Origin: Bdellovibrio sp. CG22_combo_CG10-13_8_21_14_all_39_27
GTDB lineage: Bacteria > Bdellovibrionota > Bacteriovoracia > Bacteriovoracales > Bacteriovoracaceae
Length of the DNA: 63,550 nt
Assembly (NCBI GenBank): GCA_002786715.1
Contig: PCTW01000038.1
Coordinates: forward strand, 124,492-188,041
Reading direction: 5' to 3'
Below, in pieces: positions 7,006 through 48,632 of the stretch. The notes below the pieces were generated by a model, which saw nothing but the letters and a program-made list of their open reading frames with translations, ran no database searches and was not told the origin of the DNA. Both the position numbers and the translations under genes were made by a program. Within the stretch, counting starts at the first letter, position 1, and every line of letters begins with the position of its first letter.

Positions 7006-8406
7006 TTAAGAATCTTTTACTGTCCATCGAAGACCGAATTCAAAGAGTAATTCCTCTTCATTTTTTGAAAGAAACCATTCACCGCGATGCGGATCTGCGA
7101 TTTTAAATTGCGATCCTTCATCAGTCACCCAGGGCGCTGTTATAAAATCGGGACCTTTTTCTCGCGGAAGACTTGTTTTCATTCCGTAGCTTTCAAAAAA
7201 GAGATGGGCCCAAGTGTCAGCATAATTTTCAAAGATTTGGCTTAACTTAATTTGATCTTCAGAGTTTTTAAAATACTGTGTGTATCTCGCAGCCAAGTCT
7301 GTTGCTAGTTTGCCAAATTGAAAGAGGCCAGGTTCCAACATTTTGGGAATTTGTAGTGCAATTAGTTGAGAAACGTCGTCATGGGAGCAAGCCGATTTAC
7401 GGGGTCCATGAACGAGGTCATTACTTAGAGCTTTCTCAATGGATTTCTTAATATCAAGAGGAGAGATTACTGGACCATAATGCGATTTATAGACCGGAAG
7501 ATAATCGACTTGGTTATTGAAAAAGGAGTCAAATTCAAGATGTCCACCCCATGCGGTTAAAAGTGCTCTGTGACCATTTTTAAGTGATCTCAATGCTGCC
7601 ATTCCAAAGTTCTCATCCGAATGGAGGGATGGGGAGATAAAAGTATGAGAATGGCTGAGGTAATTTGCATTAAGCTCTTCACGGTCAAGAAACCCATGAA
7701 ACTTAACTATCGAATTGAGCTTAAGCTTAACCACTAAGTCTTCAAGCGTTTTTAAATAGGCAGTAGATTTTTTGCCCATATTGGGACTGCCCAGGTGGTC
7801 TTCTTTTCCGAAAATGTCCAAAACAATTTTATTTCGGTTTTCTTCGTTTAATAATGAAATTCCCCAAAGGAGAGTATGAAGATTTTTTTGTTCAGAAATT
7901 CTTCCTGTAAAAATAAAATGATGGAGGTCCTTGGAGCGGGATTTTTGTTCAAGTTGTTGATCATCTATTGAAAAAGGTATTTTAAAAACTTTGGCTTTCA
8001 AATCAATTTTCTGGAGACAATGTATATCGGCATCTGAAGTCACAACAAAAAAATCGAATGCTTTCGTATTTTGAAGCCAGCCCCATTTTTCAAGTGGCCA
8101 TAGTCCAACAGAAGCAAGCCCATGGAGATAGAGCCCTATCGGGATTTCAAGATTGAGTTTTTGACGAATAATTTGATGAAGTTGATTTGCTTGAAGATTA
8201 AAGGCCGTAAAAAGTATTAAGTCAGACTTGAGAACAGATGCGAGTATCTTGGACGTTGAATCCTCTTCAACTTGATGGATAATAACCTCATGGCCTTGCT
8301 CTTGAAAGGCCTTGGTCCAATCCTGTACAATTCCGGGCAAAATTTCAGTCATACTTTGCCAAGATCTGTTTTGAAGGGTGTCAATAATGGTAAGTACTTT
8401 TGTCAA
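7006..8406 (-). CDS. GT4-type glycosyltransferase with altered EX7E motif
   Basis: 466 aa, GT-B fold. The nucleotide-sugar half has FIFTGRISEQKNLHTLLWG near residues 160-180, and the donor motif region reads DENFGMAALRSLKNGHRALL before TAWGG. In GT4 retaining enzymes the second Glu of EX7E contacts the donor; here that position is Arg (E-NFGMAAL-R). The C-terminal 100 residues are an extra domain. The start is TTG at 8406 with AGGG 7 nt upstream, 9 nt after the radical SAM gene. Two relatives in this window (31183-32481 and 35704-37104) share the -x-WGG ending. It may transfer an unusual sugar or be non-catalytic. Confidence 0.8.
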   Translation of the reverse strand: MTKVLTIIDTLQNRSWQSMTEILPGIVQDWTKAFQEQGHEVIIHQVEEDSTSKILASVLKSDLILFTAFNLQANQLHQIIRQKLNLEIPIGLYLHGLASVGLWPLEKWGWLQNTKAFDFFVVTSDADIHCLQKIDLKAKVFKIPFSIDDQQLEQKSRSKDLHHFIFTGRISEQKNLHTLLWGISLLNEENRNKIVLDIFGKEDHLGSPNMGKKSTAYLKTLEDLVVKLKLNSIVKFHGFLDREELNANYLSHSHTFISPSLHSDENFGMAALRSLKNGHRALLTAWGGHLEFDSFFNNQVDYLPVYKSHYGPVISPLDIKKSIEKALSNDLVHGPRKSACSHDDVSQLIALQIPKMLEPGLFQFGKLATDLAARYTQYFKNSEDQIKLSQIFENYADTWAHLFFESYGMKTSLPREKGPDFITAPWVTDEGSQFKIADPHRGEWFLSKNEEELLFEFGLRWTVKDS

Positions 8407-8415
8407 AGCTAGGCC

Positions 8416-9255
8416 CTATTTTACCGTAAACTCTTTCATCATGGATTCTGGTAGATCTGGTAAAACTTCAACGCGATTGCATGTCTTACAAGGAGTGTTC
8501 ATGTGGCGTAAAGCCTTGCGAAGTTCGTATCTAAACTTTTTATACTTCTCGCTGTTCCAAATATTGATAAGAGTATCTTCGCCAACATTTCCCATCATAT
8601 TATTTTGATAGAAGTCTTCAAAGCAAGGAAGAACGTTGCCGGCGACAGTGATGGTCACTATTTGTTCCGGAATGTAGCAAGGCAAAAGAACTGTGCTGCG
8701 CTCTGGCCCAGCTTTAACCACACCACCTCGATTGCTTTTTTTCAGCTCCTCATGAGTTTGATATTTGACTAAGCTCTTTTCTTGGTCGGAGAGTTTCTTC
8801 CAAGTGTGGTCAAAGCAATACTGATCTATCCCTTCGTGCTTGGTCACGACAAAGTGATCAATTCCGAAACTTACGAGTTTTTGAAATTTATCATAAGTTA
8901 ACAATGTACCATTGGTATAGAGTTCAATGGTGCAATCGGGAATGTATTGTTTAGTCATTTCGACATACTCAAAAAAATGGGAACAGAGCATTGGCTCATT
9001 AAAGAACTCGTAGGAAATTCTTCCTTTGAATTGAATGTCTTGGAGTTGTTGCATGATTCGTTGATAGATTTCAGGGGCCATTTCACCTTGCTCAATTCTT
9101 TCTCCAACACTATTAGGACAATAGCTACAAGTTCGGTTGCAGCGACTGTTGATCTCAATCTCAACTGCATAGAAAGTCTTTCCGTCCGTTGAGTACTCAA
9201 CAGGGAAGGGGTTTGTTTCATAGTTTTTCTTAGGTGACACCATCCTCTCTAGCAT
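8416..9255 (-). CDS. Radical SAM protein with C-terminal SPASM-like domain
   Basis: 279 aa. The SAM-binding cluster motif is CNRTCSYC near residue 40, followed by a short TIM-barrel core (ISYEFFNEPMLC, IELYTNGTLLT). The C-terminus has an auxiliary cluster set: VLPCFEDFYQN, then GNVGEDTLINIWNSEKYKKF, then CKTCNRVE. The IWNSxxYxxFR element is characteristic of SPASM enzymes. It is divergent from the carbamoyltransferase and upstream of GT4 and an acyltransferase in one operon. SPASM enzymes usually modify peptides, sugars or nucleosides; the substrate here is unknown. The ATG at 9255 has no clear ribosome site and could be replaced by ATG 9243 or GTG 9240. Confidence 0.85.
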   Translation of the reverse strand: MLERMVSPKKNYETNPFPVEYSTDGKTFYAVEIEINSRCNRTCSYCPNSVGERIEQGEMAPEIYQRIMQQLQDIQFKGRISYEFFNEPMLCSHFFEYVEMTKQYIPDCTIELYTNGTLLTYDKFQKLVSFGIDHFVVTKHEGIDQYCFDHTWKKLSDQEKSLVKYQTHEELKKSNRGGVVKAGPERSTVLLPCYIPEQIVTITVAGNVLPCFEDFYQNNMMGNVGEDTLINIWNSEKYKKFRYELRKALRHMNTPCKTCNRVEVLPDLPESMMKEFTVK

Positions 9256-9354: not shown

Positions 9355-11085
9355 ATGAAATACTTGGGTCTCTCTAAAACAATGTTTAATTCGGGAATAA
9401 GTCTCATTGAGGACAAGGGAGATTCAAGCCAGCTCTTAACCCTGATTACTGAGAGATGGGATCGTCAAAAATATTCTGGAGCATGGCCGGCCAAAGTTCT
9501 TCAGCAGATAAAGAAATCACATGAACTTAATCGATTGGATTTGATTTTGGAAAACCGAGATGTCATGACTCCCACTGAAAAAGAAGAAATGAATGACCAG
9601 CACTATCCCTTTTATGAATTTCTTAAAAATCAAGATTTAGAAAAATTTGTTCACAAAAATAACCCACAACTTAAATTTGTCAGTCATCATCTTTGTCATG
9701 CATGGGCTTCCGCCCTTTTTTCACCATTTGAAAAGAGCCTTATCTTAGTGGTCGATGGTTCGGGGAGTAGATTCTCTGATTTAGAGCTTGATCAAAAAAT
9801 GAAGAACTCTTCACTACAAGATGAGAATTTAAGTTATGAGTGTTATTCTCTATATGCTTGGAATGGAAAAGAGATAAAGCTTTTAGAAAAGAATTATCAC
9901 CAATATCAAAAAACGGCTCATGGTCCTTTAAAATTTTCTGAAGGTCTGGGAAGCATGTATGAAAAGGTTGCGCAGTTTATTTTTAATGAACCGACAGCAT
10001 CTGGTAAAGTGATGGGATTAGCTGCTTTCGGAAAACCTGTGATGAAAAAGCAAAGTCATTTTGATTTTCTCAATTCGCTTAATTGGAATAACAGTTTTAA
10101 TGGACAACGCAAAAAAGAGTGGCAAGAGTCTCCCCATCTCGAAATGTATAAACAAGTTGCAGCTGAAGCTCAGTGGCGATTTGAAGAAGAATGGCTTCAT
10201 AATGCGATTGAGCTCAAAAAGAATTATCCCGAATATGATCAACTCATTTTGGCAGGGGGATGTGCTCTTAACTGCACTGCTAATTGGAAACTTTATCAAC
10301 AGAAGATTTTTAAAGATATTTACGTTACGCCTTTTCCAGGGGATGAGTCGATTTCTATCGGCTTGGTCGCAAGGCCTTATCTAGAGAAAACCAACAAGAA
10401 TGTTTTTCGACAGCACCAGATTTCTTTTTGGGGCGAACCTCTCAATGCTCCTCAACTGAAACTAAATCAACTAGAAATCCTAAAAGCTAAATTTGAAGTG
10501 GTTGAACCTGAAGATATTGCTTCATTTACGGCTGAACTCATTTCTCAAGGACATGTCGTCGGATGGTTTCAAGGTCGCAGTGAAATTGGACCACGAGCGC
10601 TAGGGCACCGAAGTATTTTGTGTCGACCTGATACAGGAAAAGCCAAAGAGCACCTCAATAAGTTTGTTAAGTTTCGTGAAGATTTTAGACCCTATGGCAG
10701 TACCGTTCTTTTTGAACATGCTGCTCGCTTCTTTGAGACTCCAAGAGGTTTTGATAATTCTTTTATGTCCTTTGCGGTGCCGGTGAAAGGGGCATGGAAG
10801 GAATTGCTATCTGATATCGTTCATAAAGATGGTACATGCAGAATGCAAACTTTAAAATCAGAACAAGATGAGCTTTACTATCGGCTTCTCAAAGAGGTTG
10901 AAGAAAGAATAGGTATGGCTTTAGTTCTCAATACCAGTCTTAATATCATGGGACAGCCCATACTTGAGACGTTTGAAGATCTTTTAGAATTTCTAGAAAA
11001 AGTGAATTTAACGGGAGTCGCTTATGGGAACGTTTTCGTTTATACGAAAGCTGGCACCAAGGCTCCTCATTTAGCAGGGAAATGA
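9355..11085 (+). CDS. NodU/CmcH-family carbamoyltransferase
   Basis: 576 aa, the usual length. The N-terminal Kae1-like domain has the metal-binding HHLCHAWASALFSPF (about residues 110-125) and the ATP-site loop VVDGSGSR. The C-terminal YrdC-like domain contains GRSEIGPRALGHRSILC near residue 405. Enzymes of this family transfer carbamoyl from carbamoyl phosphate to hydroxyl groups of sugars or antibiotics through a carbamoyladenylate. It is followed with no gap by a radical SAM gene, so the two probably act on the same product. With the GT4 genes nearby, O-carbamoylation of a surface glycan is the simplest role. Confidence 0.88.
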   Translation: MKYLGLSKTMFNSGISLIEDKGDSSQLLTLITERWDRQKYSGAWPAKVLQQIKKSHELNRLDLILENRDVMTPTEKEEMNDQHYPFYEFLKNQDLEKFVHKNNPQLKFVSHHLCHAWASALFSPFEKSLILVVDGSGSRFSDLELDQKMKNSSLQDENLSYECYSLYAWNGKEIKLLEKNYHQYQKTAHGPLKFSEGLGSMYEKVAQFIFNEPTASGKVMGLAAFGKPVMKKQSHFDFLNSLNWNNSFNGQRKKEWQESPHLEMYKQVAAEAQWRFEEEWLHNAIELKKNYPEYDQLILAGGCALNCTANWKLYQQKIFKDIYVTPFPGDESISIGLVARPYLEKTNKNVFRQHQISFWGEPLNAPQLKLNQLEILKAKFEVVEPEDIASFTAELISQGHVVGWFQGRSEIGPRALGHRSILCRPDTGKAKEHLNKFVKFREDFRPYGSTVLFEHAARFFETPRGFDNSFMSFAVPVKGAWKELLSDIVHKDGTCRMQTLKSEQDELYYRLLKEVEERIGMALVLNTSLNIMGQPILETFEDLLEFLEKVNLTGVAYGNVFVYTKAGTKAPHLAGK

Positions 11086-12255
11086 TTGGAGATGAGTAAC
11101 TTATTTGATCATCCAATAATCAAAGCTCGTGCGAAGGAAGTTGCCGAGAGTAAAAAAAGGATCGAGTCGAAAGGACTCGATTCAGAAACATTTTGTCTCA
11201 TGCCTTTTGTGAACTTAATCCTTGAGCCAGATGGTTCAGTGGGACTTTGTCGTCAGAAAGGAACTGATTTCACTCTCGGCTATATTCAAGATCAAAGCAT
11301 CAATGAAATATGGAATGGGCCTTTTGCTCGCCGTTGGAGAAGAGAATTTCTTCAAGGGAAACCCCATATCTGTGAAACGGAACTCAAGCACAAGGGCTGT
11401 CAGCTTTGTCCTTCTCTGAATTCGATGTTAAGCAAAGCCGTTTTAACCGAAACACAAGCTCCGACACCTCTAAGGTTGACTGCCAATTTTAACGGTCGCT
11501 GTAATCTGCAGTGCCAAATGTGCGATGTTTGGAAAATGCCAAATGGACTATATAATGACGTCAATTTTTGGGAACCAGCAAAGAAAGATATTTTTCCCTT
11601 TCTCCATGAAATCGATATGCTCTCTGGCGAACCTTTTATTCAGCCGGACACCTATAGACTCATTGATGAAGTGTCTGCAGTTAATCCTGATTGTTTATGG
11701 TCGATCACAACCAATATGCACTGGAAGCTCAATGATCGCATTGAAAAATCCATGGATAAAATAAAATTCAAAAATCTTATTATGAGTATCGATAGTCTCA
11801 ACGCTCAAACTTATTACAAGATTCGTTATCCTGGAAAGCTAGATATCGTCATGGAAAACTTTAAACTCATTAAAGATTATGAAGCTCGAAGAGTTCAAAA
11901 GGGAATGACAGGTTTTAATATTCATATCAACTTTCTTATTCAGAAGGATAATTGGAAAGAAGCTAGAGAGATGATTAAGTTTTGCCTTGATCATCAAGCG
12001 ATGCCTTTTCTCACTTTTCTCTATCGACCTGAAGAGATGAGCCTATTAGATCTACCAGAGAATGAAAGAGAAGAAATTTTGGATTATTATTTTCATGAGT
12101 ACGACTGGTCAGAATTGGTTTTAATGCGTCGAGTCTGGTCCCCGCTTGTTGATTCACTACCTCGCCTCTCGAAAGCGAGCTATCTCACCCAAATTCAAAA
12201 CATAAAATCAAATCACACTCTCAAGTATGGGGAACAAGATTTAGAATTGACATAG
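11086..12255 (+). CDS. Radical SAM protein with N-terminal twitch domain
   Basis: 389 aa. The auxiliary cysteines precede the radical SAM core: FCLMPFVNLILEPDGSVGLC, the IWNGPFARRWRREF element, then CETELKHKGCQLC. The SAM motif CNLQCQMC is near residues 139-146, followed by MLSGEPF, TTNMHW and MSIDSLN. This N-terminal twitch layout is shared with the proteins at 21952, 30076, 43438 and 47382. The closest relative is 30076-31176. The start is TTG at 11086, directly after the carbamoyltransferase stop, with AGGGA 5 nt upstream; ATG 11092 is the alternative. The substrate is unknown, and coupling to the carbamoyltransferase suggests a shared one. Confidence 0.85.
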   Translation: MEMSNLFDHPIIKARAKEVAESKKRIESKGLDSETFCLMPFVNLILEPDGSVGLCRQKGTDFTLGYIQDQSINEIWNGPFARRWRREFLQGKPHICETELKHKGCQLCPSLNSMLSKAVLTETQAPTPLRLTANFNGRCNLQCQMCDVWKMPNGLYNDVNFWEPAKKDIFPFLHEIDMLSGEPFIQPDTYRLIDEVSAVNPDCLWSITTNMHWKLNDRIEKSMDKIKFKNLIMSIDSLNAQTYYKIRYPGKLDIVMENFKLIKDYEARRVQKGMTGFNIHINFLIQKDNWKEAREMIKFCLDHQAMPFLTFLYRPEEMSLLDLPENEREEILDYYFHEYDWSELVLMRRVWSPLVDSLPRLSKASYLTQIQNIKSNHTLKYGEQDLELT

Positions 12256-12328
12256 ATTTGACAACTCTTTGATCGTCTTTCACATGATTCAAACATAAGA
12301 TAAGCTTCTCAAAATTGGAGGTTTATTT

Positions 12329-12928: not shown

Positions 12929-12933
12929 TTTCA

Positions 12934-12957
12934 AAGCCTCCTTCGGGAGGCTTTTTT
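12934..12957. terminator. Bidirectional rho-independent terminator
   Basis: AAGCCTCC-TTCG-GGAGGCTT followed by TTTT on the plus strand and AAA on the other side. It serves the YceI gene and probably also the convergent small gene whose stop codon overlaps the T-run. Confidence 0.9.
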
Positions 12958-13201: not shown

Positions 13202-13383
13202 AGGAACCTCCGAAAACACCTTTATAAGTCCTTAATTTTGAAAGGGCAATATTGTCTAAACTTCAGACAGCATGGATTATTTTTACACAATAGGCCTTCG
13301 CATTTTCCCCTATTTAGGACCCCTCACAATGGCATTCCGCTTGCATTTAAAGCTTTGAATCAACTATGTGAGGAGAAAAGAGT

Positions 13384-23157: not shown

Positions 23158-23167
23158 GTCGCGATCA

Positions 23168-35313: not shown

Positions 35314-35711
35314 TCTTTTATTTTATAGATTTCACTTTTAAGTATTTTTTTCAATTTCCAAGAATAATACCAATAGGGCATATGCAATTTAATCTGACCT
35401 AAGATATGCTTTTTTTTAATAGACCACTCAAGGGGATGTCCTTTAATATTGGAGACAATGACTTCATCCGTCTCGATGTTGACAATAAATCCATAGAGAA
35501 GGGACGTATTTTGCCAATAGACAATGGGAAGATTTTTTTTCAATTCTTTGAGCGGAATAACAACGATTGCTTGTTGAAGTTTTACAAAAGGAATCATGTC
35601 ATCTTTTAACGCCGTAAATGAAAGTCCCTTCGAGATGGCCAAAAGCTTCTTTGCCTGTGCAAATTGAAAATCATCTAAATGATAATGGATGGATTCAATT
35701 TTTTTACTCAA
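35310..35711 (-). CDS. Catalytically dead S24/S26 peptidase-like protein
   Basis: 133 aa. The C-terminal 100 residues align by eye with the peptidase at 28525-28872: LKDDMIPFVKLQQAIVV against SGDSMNPLFEDGQFVV, PIVYWQNTSLLYGFIV against IIVYEFNGQHFCHYLW, and ILGQIKL against IVAVVV. The catalytic Ser is replaced by Asp38 and the His by Gly, so both catalytic positions are lost while the fold seems kept. Its start overlaps the stop of the upstream GT4 gene (35704-37104) by 8 nt. It may bind the same substrate as the active paralogue without cutting, as a scaffold or chaperone. The homology claim rests on a visual alignment. Confidence 0.5.
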   Translation of the reverse strand: MSKKIESIHYHLDDFQFAQAKKLLAISKGLSFTALKDDMIPFVKLQQAIVVIPLKELKKNLPIVYWQNTSLLYGFIVNIETDEVIVSNIKGHPLEWSIKKKHILGQIKLHMPYWYYSWKLKKILKSEIYKIKD

Positions 35712-37150: not shown

Positions 37151-38920
37151 GTGAATACAACATCTTGGAAAGATCGTAAAATTATTCAACTCCTCTTTTG
37201 GATTGGGGTGGTATGGTTTTTTTACGGCTTCACTCTGTTTTTTGACTTTTTTGTTTTTGATGATGGGCTTCATATTTGGGATAATGCCATTACGGGAGTT
37301 CGCACTCCGAATGACTTATTTTATTATTGGCGTTTCTCTTTGACCCCAGTTATTTATTTTGTTTGGCAGTTGGTTTCTATTGTTTTTTCCAATCAAGATC
37401 CGGCACCCTTTCGAGCCTTAAATTTTGTGCTTATGGGAGGCTGCTCTTTTCTAGTCTTTGATTTAAGTCGCACCTATTTAAAATTAATTTCAAAAGGTTA
37501 CCATGCATTTGAATATTTCCTTCCTTTTTTAGCAGGTCTTTTCTTTCTTCTGCACCCTTCTCAAGTCGAGTCCATTGTTTGGGTTTCCTCAGGAAGGACA
37601 TTGCTTGCAACATTTTTTGCTCTTCTTTCTTTAAAATCTCTATCCCTCGTTGAGGAGGAATCTGATTTTTCTAAGTACACATTCTTAACTGTCGTTTTTT
37701 TCGTTTTGGGAGTTTTGTCTAAACCATCTATTGTGACCCTTCCTGTGCTAATGGCAGGCTTGCTTTATTTAAAAGGGAAAAATATTAAGCAAGCTTTGAG
37801 CGTACTTTGGCCGATTATATTAATCGGAATTGTGATGGGCTTTCTCCATATTAGTGAAGTGTTTACCCCTTATCTTAAAACTCTGAGTTACGCAGATCGA
37901 TTGATTATTGTTTTAGATAGTATTTCGAGCTACTTCAAAATTTTATATTTTCCCTTTATTCAAAGTTTTGATTATGCCCGAAACCCGGCCAATGTTCTGA
38001 GCGAATGGTATGCAAACAAATGGTTATTCCTCATTTCTCCTTCGTTAATACTAATATCTATTTTTTCTGGTCTCTTTACGAAACGTTTTAAGACATGGTC
38101 CCTCTTTATGTTGGGTTTTTACGCTCTTTTACTGCCTAATATGGGCTTTATTTATTATGACTTTCAGAACATAAGTACTGTCTCAAGTCGTTATTTACAT
38201 TTACCTTTGGTCATCGTCTCTTTTGCCATCATTCCTCTTGGCCTATTTCTAATTGATAAATGGAAGAACTATTCAATCGCTTTGGCATGCTCTACTTTGG
38301 GAGTATTTATTTTAATGGCCCTGATTAATTTTAATTACGCTCGCTTATGGGTTAATTCATTAGAAGTTCTATCGCATAGTCGATCCATTACTGGTCCCAC
38401 ATATCCTCTTAGTATGTCGATGGGCAATCTTTACATGCGATCTGGAAAATATAAATTAGCGGAGAAAGAATTTTTAGAAGCATGGGACTTAGAGCCAATT
38501 GACTATGGTCCAGTCCTTGCCTTGATTGAACTCTATCAAATCTATAAATTTAAAGGTCCGATCGATAATTTTTTGACAAAGGTTCGCGAAAGAGGAGTTT
38601 TTATTACTCCGGACAAAAGTTTTGAGATTGCAAAGCTTTACGCTGAAATTGATAATTATGAGAGAGCGCGCCATTTTTCTAACATTGCTTACAAATCAAA
38701 TATTGAACCCGAAGCCAGCAAGGCTTTTTACTTGAAAAGTATTGAAATGCTCAATAGAAAAAAGATAAATCATTATCTTTTTGTGATTAAGAATTTTATT
38801 GAATTAAAGAAGTTTAAAATGGCGCAAGATATATATGAAGTAGCAACTTTAGAATTTCCAAATTCGCGAGAATTATTAGATCTTAAGAATAATCTACCTA
38901 GTACTAACGGTGAAAATTAG
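37151..38920 (+). CDS. GT-C-type membrane glycosyltransferase with C-terminal TPR-like region
   Basis: 589 aa from a GTG. About 11 membrane helices fill residues 1-400, including the luminal loop LLHPSQVESIVWVSSGRTLL, which resembles the HP-x2-[ST]E-x2-[AV]W signature of TMTC/DUF1736-like GT-C enzymes. An early Asp-Asp loop (FVFDDGLH) is in the expected place for the catalytic Asp. Residues 415-589 are helical pairs similar to TPRs (KYKLAEKEFLEAWDLEPIDYGP). These enzymes use lipid-linked sugars on the periplasmic side. It leads a plus-strand run with two anchored small proteins. Confidence 0.75.
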   Translation: MNTTSWKDRKIIQLLFWIGVVWFFYGFTLFFDFFVFDDGLHIWDNAITGVRTPNDLFYYWRFSLTPVIYFVWQLVSIVFSNQDPAPFRALNFVLMGGCSFLVFDLSRTYLKLISKGYHAFEYFLPFLAGLFFLLHPSQVESIVWVSSGRTLLATFFALLSLKSLSLVEEESDFSKYTFLTVVFFVLGVLSKPSIVTLPVLMAGLLYLKGKNIKQALSVLWPIILIGIVMGFLHISEVFTPYLKTLSYADRLIIVLDSISSYFKILYFPFIQSFDYARNPANVLSEWYANKWLFLISPSLILISIFSGLFTKRFKTWSLFMLGFYALLLPNMGFIYYDFQNISTVSSRYLHLPLVIVSFAIIPLGLFLIDKWKNYSIALACSTLGVFILMALINFNYARLWVNSLEVLSHSRSITGPTYPLSMSMGNLYMRSGKYKLAEKEFLEAWDLEPIDYGPVLALIELYQIYKFKGPIDNFLTKVRERGVFITPDKSFEIAKLYAEIDNYERARHFSNIAYKSNIEPEASKAFYLKSIEMLNRKKINHYLFVIKNFIELKKFKMAQDIYEVATLEFPNSRELLDLKNNLPSTNGEN

Positions 38921-40284: not shown

Positions 40285-42561
40285 ATGAAAAAGCGAATGA
40301 GTTTTTTAGCGATCGTCAAAGAGCTGCTGACCAGTAAAGACCAGCATGGTTTTTCTCTGGCGGAAGTTATGGTGGCTGCAGGTATGATGGGCGCACTCTC
40401 TTTAGTAGTTGTGAACTTATCAAAGACTGCTAACAAAACGACAAAAACCATTAGCCAGACAGTCGAGATTACAGAGATCCATTCGACTGTGTTGCGAGCT
40501 CTTTCGATTGAGTCAGCCTGTCAGGAGACAATGACGAGATCGACTTCTGGAGGACCGGCATTGAATGTCGATGGCATCACAGGGGCACCTCAACCTGTTG
40601 TCAATATTTATGGAAAGATCACTCAGCTTGGTACATTTCCTGTGGTTATTACTTCTGACCCAACGGATGTAAATGGGGACGGTAAACCAGATAACGAATA
40701 TGGTGATCAAGCAGGGACAGTAAACGTTCAAGGTATTCAAGTTGAAAATTATATTCAGACTGGTACATCAGCTGCAGCTGGTGAGCGATATGGTTCAGTT
40801 GATATTCGTATTACTTATCGTAAAGGTCACCAAAGTGCCGTCGGTAACGATAATATTATCAAAGATGGTTCTTATGGCGGTGTGAATGCAACGAAAATTA
40901 TTAGAGGTGTTCAAGTTGTAGCAACAACTGCAGGTGACATCGTTTCGTGTCGAGCAGACTCAAGCCAGTTCTTACAAGCTGCCTGTGATATGTTTAGTGG
41001 TGAACTTTTATCGAGTACCGTTTCTTCAGGTTTCAAATGTCACAACATAAAACTTTTCAATACTCCTGATGCTGGAACAGGAAACCTTAATAATAAATTT
41101 TCTCTTATCGGTAGACACGATGCCGCTTCTCCAAATGCCGAAGGTTCAATTAAGGCGGAAGGTGGCTTAGTTGTCGGTTCAGCAGGTGGTATGCCTCAGT
41201 TTACAGATGACACAGTAGCTCCTGGTCAGGGTAATGCTCTTATTCAAAACACTTTATCTGTCGGTGCCAATGGCGCCTACAATGCGACAGCTGCAGTTGG
41301 TGCAAACGGTGCACTGGTGCAAGGGGCATTGATGGTTTCGGGCTTGGCCCTTTCAAAACCAGCTGGCGCAGGTGTCGGTGACGGATATTTTACTGGTGGG
41401 TTAACAGTTGGGACTGACATGACTTCAACTTCGACTTCTGCTAATACGGCCGGAGATTTGTCAGTTCAAAGTAATGCTAAGATTCGGTCGAGCTTATACG
41501 TAGGACCTTTCCCTGCTCCTGCAATTACGGACATGGTGAGAATTAATGATACAGGTGCTGGTGCTTTTACAAATTCTCTTTCAGTAACAGGTGGAACAAC
41601 TTCATTGGCCAGAACTTCGGATGGTGTGGCTTTAAGTGTTACCAACGGTTCAACTGCAATGAGTTATGGGAGCACTATTACAAATGTCAGTGCTGTAAAA
41701 AATAGTGCAGTAACAGTTAACGTGAATAGTGTTACAGGATATCCGCTTGAAGTTAAGCAAACAAATCCAAACTTTAGAGTTTCTAATAGTGGAGAGATTA
41801 CTATTTATAACGGATCCGGTACGTTGCCGGGCAATGTCGTAACCCAAATTGCATCGGGCGCAGGTGCGGGTTATAGACCTTCTTATATTTACAATATGCC
41901 AACGTATTCATCAGGAAATTTAACGGCCTCTCAATATAATGAAATTCCCAATAAACGTTGGGTTCTTGAGGCTGTGTATAACTCTCTCTCGGATCAAGTG
42001 GATAAGACATCTTTATTGAATGCCGTTTCAAATATTGCAGCCCAGCCATTTGACGCTATTATGATGGCAATTTGCGATAATATTAAAGTGAAGTCGATGA
42101 GTACCGGAGCGTATTCGTCCGGCGCCGTTTCTGGTGCAAACTGTATGATAGATTCTTATGTTTGTGGGGATAACGGGACAACTCAAAGATGTTCCACTCA
42201 CTATTCTGTAAATTACAATGCAACAGGCACACTTACAGTCGGCGGGACAGCTTCGATTACTGGTAACACGACGATAGGTGGAAATTTAACTGCAAATGGT
42301 GGTTATATTTACGCTACAGCAGGATATATCAGATCAGCCTCCTACGTTCGCGGTGATAGCCATGTTTATGGTGGAACCTATGTTCAAGCTGGTGGCTCTG
42401 CTAAAACCGGCTTATCAGGAATTTGCGGTTCAAGTGGTACATGCGCAACTCGATTTGGTCGCTATGTTTGTAATAATGGTGGTGTTGTGATTGGTATGGT
42501 TAACGGACAATTAATCTGTGCTCGAAACGGTGGTGGTGTATCAGGTCCAGTTGGAATCTAA
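40285..42561 (+). CDS. Prepilin-type protein with long tail-fibre-like C-terminus
   Basis: 758 aa. A 22-residue leader ends in HG, and the mature start FSLAEVMVAAGMMGALSLVV has Phe at +1 and Glu at +5, the type IV prepilin peptidase pattern. The next ~80 residues are pilin-like. A calcium-loop-like DVNGDGKPDN lies near 130. From about residue 280 the chain becomes Gly/Ser/Thr/Asn-rich with short repeated beta segments, ending in YVCNNGGVVIGMVNGQLIC; this resembles the PilV/tail-fibre style. A normal pilin is 120-180 aa. The next gene encodes an S74 chaperone domain, which normally trimerises and folds phage tail fibres. It probably forms a pilus-tip or surface adhesin. TAGGG lies upstream of the ATG. 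Confidence 0.8.
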   Translation: MKKRMSFLAIVKELLTSKDQHGFSLAEVMVAAGMMGALSLVVVNLSKTANKTTKTISQTVEITEIHSTVLRALSIESACQETMTRSTSGGPALNVDGITGAPQPVVNIYGKITQLGTFPVVITSDPTDVNGDGKPDNEYGDQAGTVNVQGIQVENYIQTGTSAAAGERYGSVDIRITYRKGHQSAVGNDNIIKDGSYGGVNATKIIRGVQVVATTAGDIVSCRADSSQFLQAACDMFSGELLSSTVSSGFKCHNIKLFNTPDAGTGNLNNKFSLIGRHDAASPNAEGSIKAEGGLVVGSAGGMPQFTDDTVAPGQGNALIQNTLSVGANGAYNATAAVGANGALVQGALMVSGLALSKPAGAGVGDGYFTGGLTVGTDMTSTSTSANTAGDLSVQSNAKIRSSLYVGPFPAPAITDMVRINDTGAGAFTNSLSVTGGTTSLARTSDGVALSVTNGSTAMSYGSTITNVSAVKNSAVTVNVNSVTGYPLEVKQTNPNFRVSNSGEITIYNGSGTLPGNVVTQIASGAGAGYRPSYIYNMPTYSSGNLTASQYNEIPNKRWVLEAVYNSLSDQVDKTSLLNAVSNIAAQPFDAIMMAICDNIKVKSMSTGAYSSGAVSGANCMIDSYVCGDNGTTQRCSTHYSVNYNATGTLTVGGTASITGNTTIGGNLTANGGYIYATAGYIRSASYVRGDSHVYGGTYVQAGGSAKTGLSGICGSSGTCATRFGRYVCNNGGVVIGMVNGQLICARNGGGVSGPVGI

Positions 42562-42634
42562 GCCCTGTGCTTGATGACTTGTAGGACCTCTGCTAGACTA
42601 AAACTGAGTGGTTTTATTACTAAGGAAAAATGTT

Positions 42635-43066
42635 ATGGCTGAGCAACAAAACGAAAAGAAAAAAGAATACTCTTTTGGTGGAATCAAAGAATTCAATTTG
42701 GAAGAAATCGAGAAAGAAGTGCTCAATGATAGCGTTTATCTCGATGTGTTTGCGGGCTCTGATTTGGCCTTCAAAGAAAACATTCAACCACTTTTAAACC
42801 CACTTGAAGCCTTAAAGAAACTCGATGGAGTTCTTTATAATTATAAGCCTGAGACAGGCTTAGAAACTGAACTTCGTCCTGGATTTATTGCTCAGAATGT
42901 TGAAAAGGTTGTCCCTTTAGCAGTTGCTGTTGATGAGTCGGGTCTTAAATACGTCAACTATTCAGCGCTAGCACCAATGCTGGTTGAATCAGTTAAAGAG
43001 CTTGCCAAAGTTGTTGAAGCCCAAGCGAACGAAATCGCTGAGCTCAAGAAAAAGCTTAATCAGTAA
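42635..43066 (+). CDS. Stand-alone S74 (endosialidase-type) intramolecular chaperone domain
   Basis: 143 aa from the ATG at 42635 (AAGGA 8 nt upstream). The S74 signature is GSDLAFKENIQPL (the SDxxxKENI block), then LETELRPGFIAQNVEKVVPL and YVNYSALAPMLVESVKELAK, and a C-terminal coiled coil. S74 domains are usually the last part of a fibre protein and help it trimerise, then may cut themselves off. Here it is a separate gene 73 nt after the fibre gene and has no signal peptide. Chaperoning in trans is proposed. Confidence 0.82.
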   Translation: MAEQQNEKKKEYSFGGIKEFNLEEIEKEVLNDSVYLDVFAGSDLAFKENIQPLLNPLEALKKLDGVLYNYKPETGLETELRPGFIAQNVEKVVPLAVAVDESGLKYVNYSALAPMLVESVKELAKVVEAQANEIAELKKKLNQ

Positions 43067-43437: not shown

Positions 43438-44796
43438 TTGAAAAAAGATAAACGCTACCAAAAAATAGACCAAATTAGTCCGAGTTTTTGCTTGGCCAAA
43501 TGGCTACAGGTCACTATTGATCTCAAGCACGGAACAAATCATAGTTGTCATCATCCAGAGCGACACATCATTCCTACCCAGTTATTAGAAAACAAGCCTG
43601 ATGTTCTTCATAATACGCCCTTTAAAAAGCGCCAACGCAAACTGATGCTCGAGGGAGTTCGACCGCCAGAGTGTAGCTATTGCTGGACCGTCGAAGACGC
43701 GCCCGGTGAGCATATCTCTGATCGTTATATAAAGTCGACTGATCCCTGGGCCTGGGACTCGCTAGAGAAGATTGCCAAGTTACCGTGGGATCAAGACATT
43801 AATCCAACCTACGTCGAAGTGATGTTTGATTCGATTTGTAATCTTTCCTGTAGTTATTGCATGGCCGATATCTCGACTTCGATTATGAAAGAAATGAAGG
43901 AATTCGGGCCTTATCCTGTCACAGATCAGCAGCATAGAATGCCAAAGCATGCAGACCGAGTCGATGATGAGGAAAATATTTTTCAAAAAGCTTTTTGGAA
44001 ATGGCTCCCTACTTTGAGTCAAGATCTACAAGTTTTAAGAATTACGGGAGGAGAACCGCTATTGTCTCCGCAAAATGATAAGCTTCTTGAATTTTTTGAG
44101 ACACATACTTTTAAAAAACTCGAACTCATCGTTAACACCAATCTCTCAATGCCATCTGAATTTGTGCGCGGGAAATTATTAAGAGTTAAAAAACTGGTCG
44201 ATAACAAAAGAGTGGCTGGTTTTGAGCTTTATACAAGTCTCGATGCCTTCGATTCTGCCGCTGCCTATATTCGCAGTGGTCTTAATCTCGAACTTTTTTG
44301 GAAAAATATAGAACTCGTTCATGAGCTTTTTCCAGAATCTCAAATTGTCATCATGTGTGCTTACAATATTCTCAGCATGGGAAGTTTTGATGAGCTGATT
44401 CAATGTGTTCGATCCTATAAAGAAAAAGGTTATAAGTTGGTTCTCGATTTATCCTATGTTAAAAATCCTTTTTATCTGCGAGCCAATTTGGCCACTGAAG
44501 ACTTGAGAACGAAGCTCGAATCTTCCTATGCGCTCATGAAGTCTCTTTGTGCCCAAGGCCTATTTTCGGCACATGAGCTATCCAAACTAGAGACAGTTTA
44601 TAATTGGGTAAAATCTCCTAATGAACAAAGTGATATTTTAAGAGGAAGAAGAGACTTTTATTCATTTATTAATGAATATGATAAGCGAAAGAAAACCAAT
44701 TTTTTAAAAACCTTTCCTGAATATGAAGCCTTTTATAAAACCTGTCATAAGGTTTTCGAGTTCACTGAAGCTGATCGCCTAGCCTCGAAGAAATAG
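43438..44796 (+). CDS. Radical SAM protein with N-terminal twitch domain
   Basis: 452 aa, the longest of the set. N-terminal auxiliary cysteines are FCLAKWLQVTIDLKHGTNHSC, and the C-x2-C pair in PPECSYCWTVEDAPG. The SAM motif CNLSCSYC is near residue 134, followed by a charged insert, RITGGEPLLS and YTSLDAFD. The C-terminal 100 residues have no cysteine cluster. It is divergent from the PqqD-like gene, the usual partner arrangement of peptide-modifying radical SAM enzymes. The start is TTG with AAAGGA upstream. Confidence 0.85.
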   Translation: MKKDKRYQKIDQISPSFCLAKWLQVTIDLKHGTNHSCHHPERHIIPTQLLENKPDVLHNTPFKKRQRKLMLEGVRPPECSYCWTVEDAPGEHISDRYIKSTDPWAWDSLEKIAKLPWDQDINPTYVEVMFDSICNLSCSYCMADISTSIMKEMKEFGPYPVTDQQHRMPKHADRVDDEENIFQKAFWKWLPTLSQDLQVLRITGGEPLLSPQNDKLLEFFETHTFKKLELIVNTNLSMPSEFVRGKLLRVKKLVDNKRVAGFELYTSLDAFDSAAAYIRSGLNLELFWKNIELVHELFPESQIVIMCAYNILSMGSFDELIQCVRSYKEKGYKLVLDLSYVKNPFYLRANLATEDLRTKLESSYALMKSLCAQGLFSAHELSKLETVYNWVKSPNEQSDILRGRRDFYSFINEYDKRKKTNFLKTFPEYEAFYKTCHKVFEFTEADRLASKK

Positions 44797-45924
44797 CTGA
44801 AATTTGCGAATACGTTTAATTAAAGTATGTCTAATGGCATTTTTTAAGTTAAAAGGACGTGGCTGATAGTTTTTAGGAATCATATCTCCGAGGTTTCCAG
44901 GGTTAACAATTTTGTCTTTCAGACGTTCATCTTTGAGGACTTGCAAAAATTGCTGATGCTCGGGATGATCGGGGAGATAGACTAGTCGTTTTTTAAATTC
45001 CGCTGGAGAGTAAGTATTCCAGTTGACGATCTTTTGAAAGAAAACTTCATCTGCGCCTGCATCATGGCCAATATCAACCAAACGAGGCATTTCTTGATAG
45101 TTATAATCTTGAACGACAAAGTCGAGTCTGAGTCTCTCGATTTCACCTTTCGCCCGCAGTTGACCCAAAAACTTAATATTTTGCATGAGAATTTTCCAAT
45201 TGCCACCGACTCTCGTTATTCCATAAGTCGCTTCTGAACCAGCATCGAGAGAGATGCAAACCAGACCGACGTGACCATGGATGTTCTTGAGTTGTTCCCA
45301 GGTTTTCTCTGTTAGCATGACTCCATTGGATACAATTTGAATTTTTAAATTTTTATAAGTGTTGAAATCAATTTCGCTTAAAAAACTTCTAAAGTGCTGA
45401 CTAGAAAAGGGGTCGCCACTAGAGCAAAAAATAATCTCGCTAGCGTTGGAGAGTGCTTCCTTTTTGATTTTTTCACCAGCTCGATCAATAGTTTCTCTTT
45501 CGGAGGGATTATTATTATGAGAAATATAATCTGTGCGACAACTTGGACAGGCCAAATTACAAGTTTGATCATAGTTGAGATTAAGAATCTTAGGGCCATA
45601 ATCTAATTTGGTTTTTTTATTTTTTATGATATCCCACATCACCGGGTCTTCAATAATCAACTTGTCAGGGAGGCTTCCTGATTGAATCTCAGGACAATCT
45701 TCAATTTTACAAAAACGATAACTACCATCAAGAATACCACTTCTTATATTTTGAAAGGACTGACTGTTCCAAATCTGTTCAACGGACTCTTTGGAAAAAT
45801 CTCCAACTTCCTCTTCTACCAATTGTGGGCAGCAAGCAAAACACGGCATTCGACCGTCGTCTCTTTTTGAGCCGATTTCTAAATATTGAAAGGGTTTAGG
45901 GCAAAATTTACTCTTTAAATCCAT
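44779..45924 (-). CDS. Radical SAM/SPASM-type protein
   Basis: 381 aa. N-terminal cysteines are FCPKPF and MPCFACCPQL, followed by the IWNSQSFQNIRSGILDG element and CKIEDC. The SAM motif CNLACPSC is near residue 121, then FCSSGDPF and VCISLDAGS. The C-terminus is basic (RHTLIKRIRKFQLFLRG). The 3' end overlaps the convergent radical SAM gene by 18 nt, and the start overlaps the preceding GT-C gene by 17 nt on the minus strand, so a minus-strand operon of radical SAM 47382, GT-C 45908 and this gene is indicated. The substrate is unknown. Confidence 0.85.
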   Translation of the reverse strand: MDLKSKFCPKPFQYLEIGSKRDDGRMPCFACCPQLVEEEVGDFSKESVEQIWNSQSFQNIRSGILDGSYRFCKIEDCPEIQSGSLPDKLIIEDPVMWDIIKNKKTKLDYGPKILNLNYDQTCNLACPSCRTDYISHNNNPSERETIDRAGEKIKKEALSNASEIIFCSSGDPFSSQHFRSFLSEIDFNTYKNLKIQIVSNGVMLTEKTWEQLKNIHGHVGLVCISLDAGSEATYGITRVGGNWKILMQNIKFLGQLRAKGEIERLRLDFVVQDYNYQEMPRLVDIGHDAGADEVFFQKIVNWNTYSPAEFKKRLVYLPDHPEHQQFLQVLKDERLKDKIVNPGNLGDMIPKNYQPRPFNLKNAIRHTLIKRIRKFQLFLRG

Positions 45925-47365
45925 AAAATTTTTGAAAATGGGTTCCTGCCAATTGTTTATAATCTTCTAAGTTTGAAATCATTTTATGCCATTCATCTGT
46001 TCCCGAAAATCCAGACACCGTGAAAAAATAGGGTTTTTGATCAAAGTTTTTCATCTCAAATTCTTTAAGCTCGAGAGCCTTAAATTGTGGCATCTTGTCC
46101 CAGTCAATCGCATAGCGGGCAACGTCCTTTAAATAGACAACCATGGCATATGAAACCTTATCACAAATGATGATATCTGACGCCTTTCTTGTATTAGATA
46201 TAAATTTCATAACAGGAACCAGGTCGGACTGGGGTTGAAAGGTAAAAGTGGAGGCTTGCATGAGGACTAAGGGCCCTAGAAAAAGGCTTAGCCTTTTTTG
46301 CTTTTTTGCATCAATATCGCTGAGGATTTCCAACAGAAAAAGCGTAACCGAGATAAAAGATAAAGCATGAAGTCCTAGGCTATAGCGTTCTTGAAATGAA
46401 ATGGGGGAGATTTTCATTAAGTCTAAAATAAAATATATACTGAATGAAGCAAGTATGAAAAATGAGATTTTTTTATGTTGAATAGTTCTTTGCTCATTCT
46501 TTTTAGTGAAATGTAAATAAGTTGGATAACTAACAAGACATAAAAACAAAGGGTGGGAGAAAGTGCTTTTTAAAGCATCCCATCCACCAATACTAAGATA
46601 CAACTGATCCGTATAATGAAAATTAAGATCCGAGAGTTGGAACCTCATTGTGAAAAAAAGAGTGATAAGTATATAGGCAACGGGAATTAAATTTATAAGG
46701 ATAAAATTTTTCTTTTGAAGTTTAGTTTCTAGATAAAAGTAAGTGAAGATAAAATATAAAGTATAACTAAACCAAAAGGTGTATCGGCTTCCTAGGAAAA
46801 AGAGCAGGATGAGGGCCATCGACCATTTGGGTTTATCTAATGTCGCTTGTTCAAGTGACATTAAGTAAAAGAGATAGAACACTCCGCAAATTTCCATCAT
46901 ATAAGGTCTGACAGTAAACGCATAATTGATAAAAAGAGGATCTAGAAAGAAGAGCGAAATGACGAGAAAGGGGATGAACTTCGTCTCTTTAAGATTAGCT
47001 AAAGATTTTGAGAAAATAATGATACTAAGAAAGAAAAAAGACATAGGAAGCAATCTTAACCACAGAGTATGGTTTGAAAGAAAACTCCAAAAATGCAAGA
47101 GATAAGTAAAGAGTCCTGGGTCCAAGCTTCCGCCCCGTCTGTTGACAAGCCAAGTCTCTAGTAAGCCATTTGAAGAAATCCTACCTTCAAAAATTTCATG
47201 TACCTGTATTCCTTTCGCAGTGAAATAAAGAATGACTTCATCGAGATTAAAATTATTGTAAAATAATCCTTTTCGTATCAGAACAAGAATTAAAAAAAGA
47301 AAGAGAACTAAAGGTAGTCGATCATAATTATCTTTTTTCTTAATGTACGAAATTAGCTCTTTCAA
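45908..47365 (-). CDS. GT-C-type polytopic membrane protein (glycosyltransferase 39-like)
   Basis: About 485 aa from a TTG at 47365 (AAGGA about 10 nt upstream, after the stop of the previous gene); an ATG at 47419 would overlap that gene and add 18 residues. About 11 hydrophobic helices are followed by a small soluble tail. The loop after helix 1 contains NNFNLDEVILYF, an Asp-Glu pair where GT-C enzymes have their catalytic acid. The C-terminal globular part contains IICDKVSYAMVVYLKD. Related enzymes transfer sugars from polyprenyl phosphate. It is sandwiched between two radical SAM genes with overlaps. Confidence 0.72.
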   Translation of the reverse strand: MKELISYIKKKDNYDRLPLVLFLFLILVLIRKGLFYNNFNLDEVILYFTAKGIQVHEIFEGRISSNGLLETWLVNRRGGSLDPGLFTYLLHFWSFLSNHTLWLRLLPMSFFFLSIIIFSKSLANLKETKFIPFLVISLFFLDPLFINYAFTVRPYMMEICGVFYLFYLMSLEQATLDKPKWSMALILLFFLGSRYTFWFSYTLYFIFTYFYLETKLQKKNFILINLIPVAYILITLFFTMRFQLSDLNFHYTDQLYLSIGGWDALKSTFSHPLFLCLVSYPTYLHFTKKNEQRTIQHKKISFFILASFSIYFILDLMKISPISFQERYSLGLHALSFISVTLFLLEILSDIDAKKQKRLSLFLGPLVLMQASTFTFQPQSDLVPVMKFISNTRKASDIIICDKVSYAMVVYLKDVARYAIDWDKMPQFKALELKEFEMKNFDQKPYFFTVSGFSGTDEWHKMISNLEDYKQLAGTHFQKFYGFKE

Positions 47366-47381
47366 ATTTCCAAAATTCCTT

Positions 47382-48632
47382 TTAACTCGGTTGATCTTTA
47401 AACAACAGAGGAAGTACATCTTTCATTGAGTCGCCCCGTTTTTGGTCAAGTTTTTTACTAAAAAGAAGAAAATCTAAAAATTTTTCTCCTGGGTTTGCCT
47501 TTAGTGCGGTGTCAATGAGAGAAAATAATTTAGAGATATGCACTGAATGTCTTTTACGAATGGAGCCATCCAGGTCATTGCTTTCAAAAAAATGGGTAAT
47601 TTCATTTTTTATTTTCATTAATAGCTCTTTCGGAAGAACATTTAAATTAAGAGTTGCTGGGGCAAAAACTGGATTGAATTCTGGTATGGCCAGTTCAGCA
47701 ATCTTCAATGAAAAAGTGAACTTTAATAAGTTAACCAGACCCAGTAGTGAGTAGGCACTTAACGTCGTTACAATTTTGAGGTCGTATTTTGGTTGCTTAG
47801 ATAACTCTAAAAACTTATCCAAATTTTTTTTAACTTCATTCCAATCACATCCATAGCGAATATACTCAGCCAGTTCCTCCACTGCGTCTATACTGCAGAA
47901 AAATGAAATTTTTTTAAATTGTTTAAAATCTTCCAAAAGATGATTGGGATAGGTCGTGGCATTGGTATAAAAACTGAGCTCAATTTCAGAGGCCCTTGGA
48001 TGCTTGGCCATTTTTTTAATTAAAAACTCGACGTAAGGAGAGAGAAAAGGCTCACCTCCCGTAATTTTCATCTCTGAAAGATGATCGAGCAAATTCTCTA
48101 ATAATCCGTTTTCTTCAACAAGGAGAGAAAGTTTCTTCGTATCGATAAAAAACTCAGGGTCATCAGGTCTTACGAGTCCAAGCTTTTCCCATTCATGAGC
48201 TATTTTGACAGAATATCGTGGATGGCACATTCGACATGCAAGATTGCAAATGTTATCAGTCGAATAATGGAAATGCTTTATCTCAACCTCGATTGAGCCA
48301 TCGGGTTGAATGGTCGGTGCAATTTTTTCTAGGTCGGTGTGAAATTCTCTAAGATATTCAATTCGAGGTGAATGCCCTGAAGAAATTTCTGATTGATGAC
48401 AATTCTGGCAAGCAGCCGGGATTTTATTTGAGAGCATTTCTAGTCGAACTTGCTTGAGATAGTTACTGTTGATAATTTCAGAAATATTCTTGACCTGAGT
48501 AAAGCGGAGAGGCTTGCCTGAGGTGTCTTTAATCATGTCACGTTGGGAGATATGACAGCAGAGGCGAACGCTTTGATCACTCTCTACACTTAGTCCGATA
48601 AATGGCATTGGGCAGACGAACTTATATTTCAT
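47382..48632 (-). CDS. Radical SAM protein with N-terminal twitch domain
   Basis: 416 aa. N-terminal cysteines are FVCPMPFIGL, VRLCCHIS and PAACQNCHQSE, followed by SGHSPRIEYL. The SAM motif CNLACRMC is near residue 126, then MKITGGEPF and FFCSIDAVEEL. It is closest to 21952-23157. AGAGG lies upstream of the ATG. It is the first gene of the minus-strand operon that continues with the GT-C and the second radical SAM gene. Confidence 0.85.
   Translation of the reverse strand: MKYKFVCPMPFIGLSVESDQSVRLCCHISQRDMIKDTSGKPLRFTQVKNISEIINSNYLKQVRLEMLSNKIPAACQNCHQSEISSGHSPRIEYLREFHTDLEKIAPTIQPDGSIEVEIKHFHYSTDNICNLACRMCHPRYSVKIAHEWEKLGLVRPDDPEFFIDTKKLSLLVEENGLLENLLDHLSEMKITGGEPFLSPYVEFLIKKMAKHPRASEIELSFYTNATTYPNHLLEDFKQFKKISFFCSIDAVEELAEYIRYGCDWNEVKKNLDKFLELSKQPKYDLKIVTTLSAYSLLGLVNLLKFTFSLKIAELAIPEFNPVFAPATLNLNVLPKELLMKIKNEITHFFESNDLDGSIRKRHSVHISKLFSLIDTALKANPGEKFLDFLLFSKKLDQKRGDSMKDVLPLLFKDQPS

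Follow-up and report, generated by a model that had tools for sequence, protein, structure and literature searches.

The window, meaning the whole stretch of DNA that was analysed, comprises 63,550 nucleotides (contig 82, positions 124492-188041) of the 4.08 Mb genome of Bdellovibrio sp. CG22_combo_CG10-13_8_21_14_all_39_27. Its open reading frames (ORFs) were listed, and the proteins encoded between 7006 and 50006 were scanned against Pfam and NCBIfam. The parts of the gene cluster found there are known families: radical S-adenosylmethionine (SAM) enzymes, glycosyltransferases, a carbamoyltransferase, an ABC exporter and a PqqD-like protein. Among them lies a small ORF whose product, designated K, joins a short leader-like N-terminus to an S74 chaperone domain. 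Our results support the view of K as a conserved precursor-like protein, tied to the PqqD protein and to radical SAM enzymes, whose leader is common to other precursor-like peptides. The features that bear most directly on this view are the following (loci related to the K region are referred to below as L plus a number, genomes as G plus a number).

42635..42757, plus strand: N-terminal part of K, leader plus candidate core, 41 residues, MAEQQNEKKKEYSFGGIKEFNLEEIEKEVLNDSVYLDVFAG; the leader motif is shared with small peptides near PqqD
42758..43066, plus strand: C-terminal part of K, S74 self-cleaving chaperone domain from the predicted cleavage serine (SDxxxK); Pfam PF13884, 51.5 bits
43071..43382, minus strand: L, PqqD-like recognition element, start probably 43352; PF05402, 44 bits
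43438..44796, plus strand: M, N-twitch radical SAM enzyme; NF033640, 286.5 bits; within 10 kb of K in 15 of 24 related loci
11086..12255, plus strand: D, N-terminal-SPASM radical SAM enzyme; family in 24 of 25 K genomes and directly after K in many loci
30076..31176, plus strand: D2, second copy of D, 43% identical to it
8416..9255, minus strand: B, radical SAM protein with C-terminal SPASM, 279 residues; near K in 8 of 15 full-flank loci
44779..45924, minus strand: Q, N-twitch radical SAM protein; close relative in few related loci

The ORF of K extends from 42608 to 43066, between a fibre-like gene starting at 40285 and the PqqD gene. Its likely start is the ATG at 42635, which has AAGGA upstream, and no signal peptide is apparent. 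The leader segment, YSFGGIKEFNLEEIE, follows the pattern YxFGGI-x-EFNLxxIE and precedes a near-invariant core (VYLDVFAG in this genome), after which the S74 domain begins. When 15 K proteins are compared from YxFGG onward, mean pairwise identity is 75% for leader and core versus 41% for the S74 part. S74, a self-cleaving domain otherwise familiar from the tail fibres of viruses, has SDxxxK as its catalytic motif, and Bd3182, a Bdellovibrio mosaic adhesive trimer (MAT) fibre, cleaves itself at the serine of that motif (PMC10769870). The motif is kept in 24 of 25 K proteins, and K would presumably cut itself between the glycine and the serine at this junction. No further credible small ORF with a YxFGG motif occurs in the window, the matches of the regular expression being an ORF of 30 residues, another on the strand opposite radical SAM gene 44779 and a third well away from the cluster.

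The leader recurs in front of other sequences. Among about 8,400 small ORFs (1.36 Mb) searched for the motif, those that open with [YF]xFG[GDEQ][ILV] and lie 0.3-3.5 kb from PqqD have unrelated cores and come from five loci (L107, L113, L115, L104 and L105), in all of which a PqqD of this kind is present and K absent. The peptide of L115 (...KEYYFGGIKPLSVTQIMGLIGVLFSSVQNLRAGSPCGGPCGPCAGGAGTACGSGGTGYPCTTSPCW), which lies among PqqD, radical SAM and GT4 genes, was found by a hidden Markov model (HMM) of the K leader at E 0.003; that of L113 reads ...TYYFGGLTVKKIEIVEDVFAIAQSPINCIGPITFGPFGPFGS, and that of L107 (...NFKFGQIKKIASTRKQHRPIIHGGSGTCTS) adjoins PqqD and a peptidase gene of the family called J below. 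Those of L104 and L105 (...YFFGELKKIELSEDDT...) have Pro/Gly-rich cores and are situated 1.2 kb from PqqD, beside genes of families E and F (see below). In L108, a related leader (...KPYFGGLTIVSLNDID...) stands directly before two radical SAM genes; protein 34369 of the window was considered as a relative of the ORF beside this precursor and was dropped, the phmmer match not being significant. The remaining motif matches are antisense, very short, or at least 4.5 kb from PqqD. A conserved leader followed by variable cores beside a recognition element is a hallmark of ribosomally synthesized and post-translationally modified peptides (RiPPs). Because different cores follow the same leader beside a RiPP recognition element (RRE), we regard the K-type leader as a RiPP leader. 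K keeps that leader, but differs from the peptides that share it in its near-invariant core and its S74 domain.

Three further loci hold possible precursors of other kinds. In L103, a leader-like GFQFGDLKK and a longer stretch ending Gly/Ser-rich precede an S74 domain, and the next genes encode YcaO and nitroreductase-type proteins. These two make up the enzyme pair of the linear azol(in)e-containing peptides (LAPs), which are azole RiPPs. The adjacency of PqqD, S74 protein, YcaO and nitroreductase-type oxidase (L103:9425-12512) may therefore mark an azole RiPP with an S74-bearing precursor. A search of 241 genomes with the L103 leader and core gave no convincing second case, the match in G074 not being precursor-like. 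In L109, a PqqD-like protein (L109:2739-3236) ends in ...FGGIKKENIVFEEDSVLDAYSQSILSCGGCGGATLFCT; its C-terminal tail resembles a leader plus Cys-rich core (SCGGCGGATLFCT) and it may be an RRE-precursor fusion, with a PqqD match that is weak (19.8 bits, below the Pfam cut-off). Finally, a 104-residue ORF ending FVCNSNFICHSNCYTPPPKSRSRR (L118:2393-2707), is a possible precursor without YxFGG; its neighbour is a 641-residue gene, and genes of the radical SAM, D-like and H types (H being the permease family listed below) are close by.

The link between K and its partners was followed in two ways. A GTDB-wide scan with the K alignment returned 24 loci, and HMMs of the cluster genes were searched within 10 kb on each side; 15 of the 24 loci have full flanks. 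The K matches were found only in Bdellovibrionota, with labels that include Bacteriovoracaceae, Bacteriovorax, Halobacteriovorax, Halobacteriovoraceae, Bdellovibrio, Bdellovibrionales and 'Deltaproteobacteria' metagenome-assembled genomes (MAGs). The families that accompany K in these loci, besides those given above, are represented in the window by the following proteins (fractions refer to full-flank loci).

7006..8406, minus strand: A, GT4 glycosyltransferase; PF00534, 53 bits; 11/15
9355..11085, plus strand: C, NodU/CmcH-type carbamoyltransferase; PF16861 and PF02543; 11/15
31183..32481, plus strand: E, GT4 glycosyltransferase, first of the E-F-G row; PF00534, 62.6 bits; 11/15
32474..33430, plus strand: F, protein after E; no Pfam or NCBIfam match; 11/15
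33427..34317, plus strand: G, protein after F; 12/15
26881..27657, minus strand: H, ABC-2 (Wzm-type) permease; PF01061; 11/15
27750..28538, plus strand: I, Wzt-type ATPase, 262 residues; PF00005, nearest NF050108; 10/15
28525..28872, plus strand: J, small S24/S26-like peptidase (SMxP, His for Lys); 9/15

Across all 24 loci, PqqD was found in 20 (one of them fused), F, G and D in 16 each, E, H and M in 15, A, C and I in 14, J in 12 and B in eight; in the full-flank loci PqqD is present in 14 of 15, D in 11 and M in ten. Gene order and strand are scrambled among the K loci, and the loci therefore share content rather than merely the synteny of close relatives. In one Bdellovibrionales MAG (L064), all twelve core families lie within 20 kb. 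The second approach was a phyletic profile over the 241 genomes of the phylum, in 25 of which K is strong. PqqD of the L type (E<1e-15) occurs in 24 of the 25 K genomes versus 4 of the 216 others, and radical SAM protein D (E<1e-120) in 24 of 25 versus none of 216. The corresponding Fisher values (7e-28 for PqqD and 3e-32 for D) ignore relatedness and indicate an order of size only.

In three genomes, G241 (= L062 = L110), G121 and G191, PqqD and K are encoded as a single ORF of 252-266 residues, and Pfam detects both the PqqD and the S74 domain in the G241 fusion. An AlphaFold model of that fusion has a mean predicted local distance difference test (pLDDT) score of 89.8 and a predicted template-modelling (pTM) score of 0.60. 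A strand (leader residues LKSFN) and a helix (LAQIESEVL) are modelled with fair confidence, and the region around YLDVFAG is poorly defined. The fold of the N-domain matches the lasso peptide RREs TbiB1 (Z 9.8, root-mean-square deviation 2.3, 86 residues) and TfuB1 (Z 8.5), both solved with leader peptides, and that of the C-domain matches MyRF ICA (Z 9.3) and the phage K1F chaperone (Z 7.2). For L itself, the nearest NCBIfam model is lasso_PqqD_Bac, with a score below the cut-off of that model. RREs usually bind known leaders as a strand on beta3 (PMC12710340). Binding of the K leader by L is a prediction, because the partner strand of the leader is not visible in the model.

The first-pass annotation of this DNA had counted seven radical SAM proteins, and all seven (B, D, D2, M, Q and those at 21952-23157, plus strand, and 47382-48632, minus strand) score above the Pfam cut-off with an intact CX3CX2C motif visible in the sequence. 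Genome-wide, there are 36 radical SAM matches in 4.08 Mb; because seven of the 36 fall inside these 41 kb, their density here is not due to chance. Six of the seven have the SPASM/twitch part ahead of the radical SAM domain (NCBIfam NF033640) and so invert the usual order, which is found in B alone. The proteins at 21952 (327 bits), 43438 (286.5) and 47382 (314) exceed the NF033640 cut-off of 170 bits, while those at 11086, 30076 and 44779 fall below it and are divergent members.

The view that twitch radical SAM genes in their own right signal a modified peptide was considered and rejected. As controls, three stretches rich in radical SAM genes but devoid of K (60, 30 and 20 kb) were compared with A, C, E to J, K and L, none of which had a match there; twitch radical SAM genes are thus numerous in loci that lack the conserved partners, and generic relatives of M are spread more broadly than K among the 241 genomes. 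One stretch in the same genome (L039, G000:C79:48000-67999) holds a tandem trio of N-twitch radical SAM ORFs (10001-11191, 11178-12434 and 12424-13647) without the conserved partners. A phage origin of M was likewise rejected, tblastn against 50,697 phage records having returned no match.

Most of the remaining family assignments made earlier for the locus held. The carbamoyltransferase, MBOAT protein, ABC-2 permease with its Wzt-like ATPase and PqqD protein all have family matches, and overlapping or abutting ORFs are seen. Two of three proposed GT4 enzymes are clear; the third (R, at 35704) is marginal at 26.2 bits versus a cut-off of 26.4, but is homologous to the others. A and R are apparently fused into one protein of 926-941 residues in L026:13263-16043 (G002) and L029:6313-9138. 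In the proposed S26 peptidase pair, the protein at 28525 (J) has the SMxP serine and a His at the general-base position, as in Sec11-type peptidases, but its homologue at 35310 lacks the serine (DDMIP). For two polytopic putative GT-C proteins, the Pfam and NCBIfam scans gave no family match. F has no significant sequence match in the PDB, and its AlphaFold model, of moderate quality (pLDDT 76.6), has no PDB fold match below E 0.001.

It had been proposed that some 40 kb form one locus producing a hybrid glycopeptide or modified surface glycan, and that neighbourhood comparison in other Bdellovibrionota should reveal whether its components co-occur. The comparison shows that twitch radical SAM, GT4, S26-like and PqqD genes co-occur, together with carbamoyltransferase and exporter, within 10 kb in loci that were found only through K. 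The idea of a peptide combined with sugars is thereby supported in kind, although the precursor K had not been identified. The extent of the locus requires revision: a stretch of about 9 kb (12329-21805; YceI, HD, amidohydrolase and uracil-DNA-glycosylase-like proteins, among others) looks unrelated to the rest and splits the locus into two blocks, and the MBOAT, SGNH, 45908 and 47382 proteins have no counterpart in the 24 loci.

We consider it probable that the conserved core encodes a RiPP-type pathway in which K is the precursor, is bound by PqqD and is modified by N-twitch radical SAM enzymes, with glycosylation, carbamoylation, S74-mediated release and export as proposed further steps. 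In such a pathway, L would capture the K leader as an added beta-strand and present K to D and M. These two enzymes, perhaps with B, would modify the core by radical chemistry, and the change may be a cross-link in the invariant Y-x-D-V-F stretch. The notion of a Y-x-D cross-link is speculation drawn from the three-residue motifs of cyclophanes. The GT4 enzymes A, E and R together with carbamoyltransferase C could build a carbamoylated glycan on the peptide, self-cleavage of the S74 domain between G and S would release a peptide with DVFAG at its end, J may trim the leader, and H and I would export the product. Everything in this scheme beyond the link of K to L and D/M and the leader relationship draws on family knowledge and conserved company; the substrate and chemistry of each enzyme, S74 cleavage in K, attachment of the sugars to the peptide instead of to a separate glycan, the role of J as leader peptidase, and export are accordingly put forward as suggestions. 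There is precedent for several of these elements, in that RRE fusions to glycosyltransferases and carbamoyltransferases have been reported (PMC12710340) and mycofactocin is a radical-SAM RiPP that is oligoglycosylated (PMC7491314).

A number of observations weigh against this interpretation. The core of K is nearly invariant, unlike that of most RiPP natural products, though like that of cofactor precursors. The leader of K in L112 has lost its YxFGG part, and the K protein of L066 (9983 onward) carries Cys in place of the S74 serine (FAGCD), the sole such case among 25. The E-value thresholds of the phyletic profile were chosen after the lists had been seen; at 1e-10 and 1e-40, ten and seven K-less genomes have relatives of PqqD and D, respectively. 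In the window 31 kb separate D from K, several genomes place M away from K, and proteins of the N-twitch radical SAM type also occur where neither K nor PqqD is present. The fusion model reaches a pTM of just 0.60, and no partner for the leader strand can be seen in it. Furthermore, there is no sign that the glycosyltransferases act on the peptide.

The last point keeps alive the strongest rival, in which two systems are interleaved: a surface glycan pathway (GT4, carbamoyltransferase, radical SAM and Wzm/Wzt proteins) and an independent small RiPP made from K, PqqD and one or two radical SAM enzymes. Wzm/Wzt exporters and carbamoyltransferases are classical glycan genes, MBOAT and SGNH proteins are glycan-acylation genes, and F, so probably the whole E-F-G row, occurs in 51 of the 241 genomes, many of them without K. 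Set against this, E, F, G, H, I, A and C accompany K across scrambled gene orders and deep branches, and the K-less L104 and L105 pair E and F with PqqD and another YxFGG-type precursor (E is also present in L115). We judge two separate systems rather unlikely, and retain them as a rival because there is no sign of sugar attached to the peptide.

Less probable still, and in our estimate distinctly improbable, is that the near-invariant core of K gives rise to a glycosylated redox cofactor for dehydrogenases, as with pyrroloquinoline quinone (PQQ) or mycofactocin. The set of PqqD, radical SAM enzyme, peptidase and glycosyltransferase does recall mycofactocin, which is oligoglycosylated (PMC7491314), and three loci have a gene for a zinc alcohol dehydrogenase close to K. 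The Wzm/Wzt-type exporter of most loci nevertheless argues for an exported product, and no dehydrogenase is consistently linked. Very improbable is a third alternative, in which the prepilin-like fibre N is served by K as a trimerisation chaperone acting in trans or as what is left of a MAT-type tail-fibre adhesin: S74 domains do end MAT fibres in Bdellovibrio (PMC10769870), and N, itself without S74, is directly upstream of K in the window, but just 5 of 15 full-flank loci have N near K, and K lacks an apparent signal peptide. Moreover, conservation in K lies in the N-terminal peptide, which is fused to PqqD in three genomes and has its leader in common with S74-free small peptides.

The other features of the window range from semi-conserved to probably unrelated to the core.

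25726..26877, plus strand: P, thioredoxin-like; PF13462; semi-conserved
28875..30089, plus strand: T, amidohydrolase with apparent signal peptide; PF01979; semi-conserved
35310..35711, minus strand: U, degenerate J homologue without catalytic Ser; DDMIP in place of SMxP
35704..37104, minus strand: R, third GT4-like protein, homologous to A and E
37151..38920, plus strand: O, polytopic protein with C-terminal TPR-like part; semi-conserved
40285..42561, plus strand: N, prepilin-like fibre protein (GFSLAEV start) without S74; semi-conserved, 5/15
21952-23157, plus strand: radical SAM protein; weak matches in four of 24 related loci; probably not core
Within 21952..25665, plus strand: MBOAT (23168) and SGNH-like (24622) proteins; absent from 24 of 24 related loci; probably not core
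Within 45908..48632, minus strand: polytopic protein 45908; no counterpart in 24 related loci; probably not core
47382-48632, minus strand: radical SAM protein; no counterpart in 24 related loci; probably not core

The proteins at 35310, 38921 and 39406, like the MBOAT, SGNH, 45908 and 47382 proteins, have matches in none of the 24 K loci. The SGNH-like protein shows a visible GDSL-like motif and has no Pfam match. From the 12329-21805 stretch, only the alcohol dehydrogenase gene at 20780 was searched for in the related loci, where it has a match in three of 24. The same stretch holds a 682-residue ORF (18270-20318) that starts with a hydrophobic segment and matches the uracil-DNA-glycosylase superfamily (29.8 bits), which is unusual for an exported protein. 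A FecR-domain gene and a second gene adjoin the cluster (48647-50006), and a homologous pair adjoins PqqD in L108 (7304-8696). Further along the window, two adjacent ORFs (52764-54652) resemble, by the look of their sequences, an alkylation repair pair made up of an Ada/AlkA fusion and a methylguanine-DNA methyltransferase.

If K is the precursor of such a pathway, the N-twitch radical SAM subfamily gains a concrete candidate substrate with a defined recognition motif. The results point to a RiPP leader type, YxFGG[ILV], and to a leader-core-S74 precursor architecture. Neither of these, nor the link of D/M to a precursor, was found in the papers searched, which were open literature, and the leader motif may overlap with the thirteen recognition motifs of PMC12710340; the sole publication matching 'RiPP' and 'peptidase S74' together was a proteomics survey of enterococci. 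More tentatively, and with somewhat less than even confidence, we suggest that Bdellovibrionota make RiPP-type precursors in which a core is followed by a self-cleaving S74 domain that frees the peptide, that a shared glycosylation-carbamoylation-export chassis serves other YxFGG precursors as well, and that glycosylated radical-SAM peptides are displayed on the surface or occur in secretions. If the sugars sit on the peptide, this would be another glycan-decorated radical-SAM RiPP besides mycofactocin. The idea is testable, because a contig labelled Halobacteriovorax marinus (L054) carries a homologous locus and members of that genus are in culture.

Among known systems, mycofactocin and PQQ biosynthesis resemble the K cluster in their conserved precursor core, discrete PqqD, radical SAM enzymes and peptidase, with a glycosyltransferase nearby in mycofactocin (MftF). 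The K cluster differs in having S74 on the precursor, mostly N-terminal auxiliary-cluster domains, a Wzm/Wzt-type exporter and a carbamoyltransferase. The window radical SAM proteins match the mycofactocin and PQQ models weakly; with 20-24 bits against a mycofact_rSAM cut-off of 265, none is an MftC equivalog. Akin to the lasso peptide B1 proteins, L is closest to that group by HMM, as is the homologous fusion by fold (TbiB1, Z 9.8). The residues of YxFGGI are spaced as in the lasso leader motif YxxPxL, with Gly in place of the proline, and neither the Asn-synthetase-like cyclase nor the transglutaminase-like B2 protease has a Pfam match among the scanned window proteins (7006-50006). The analysis turned up no assigned substrate for the NF033640 subfamily, and of its branches D and M alone have a tie to K.

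The MAT fibres of Bdellovibrio bacteriovorus share with K an S74 domain with SDxxxK, self-cleavage having been shown in Bd3182; before S74, however, they have a signal peptide, a beta domain of about 130 residues and a long fibre (PMC10769870), whereas K has 41 residues and no fibre. To the LAPs, typified by microcin B17, the closest approach is the L103 relative, which pairs its Gly/Ser-rich S74 protein with YcaO and a nitroreductase-type oxidase; in the window cluster no YcaO was matched, and radical SAM enzymes are there instead. A Wzm/Wzt pair is also found in ABC-transporter-dependent O-antigen and capsule clusters, whose initiating phosphoglycosyltransferase (WecA/WbaP) and nucleotide-sugar synthesis genes are not among the Pfam matches of 7006-50006 and could be elsewhere in the genome. 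With RiPP systems in general, the cluster has in common a precursor with conserved leader and core beside predicted modifying enzymes, and an RRE of the PqqD type linked to that precursor by adjacency, by fusions and by a phyletic match in 24 of 25 genomes.

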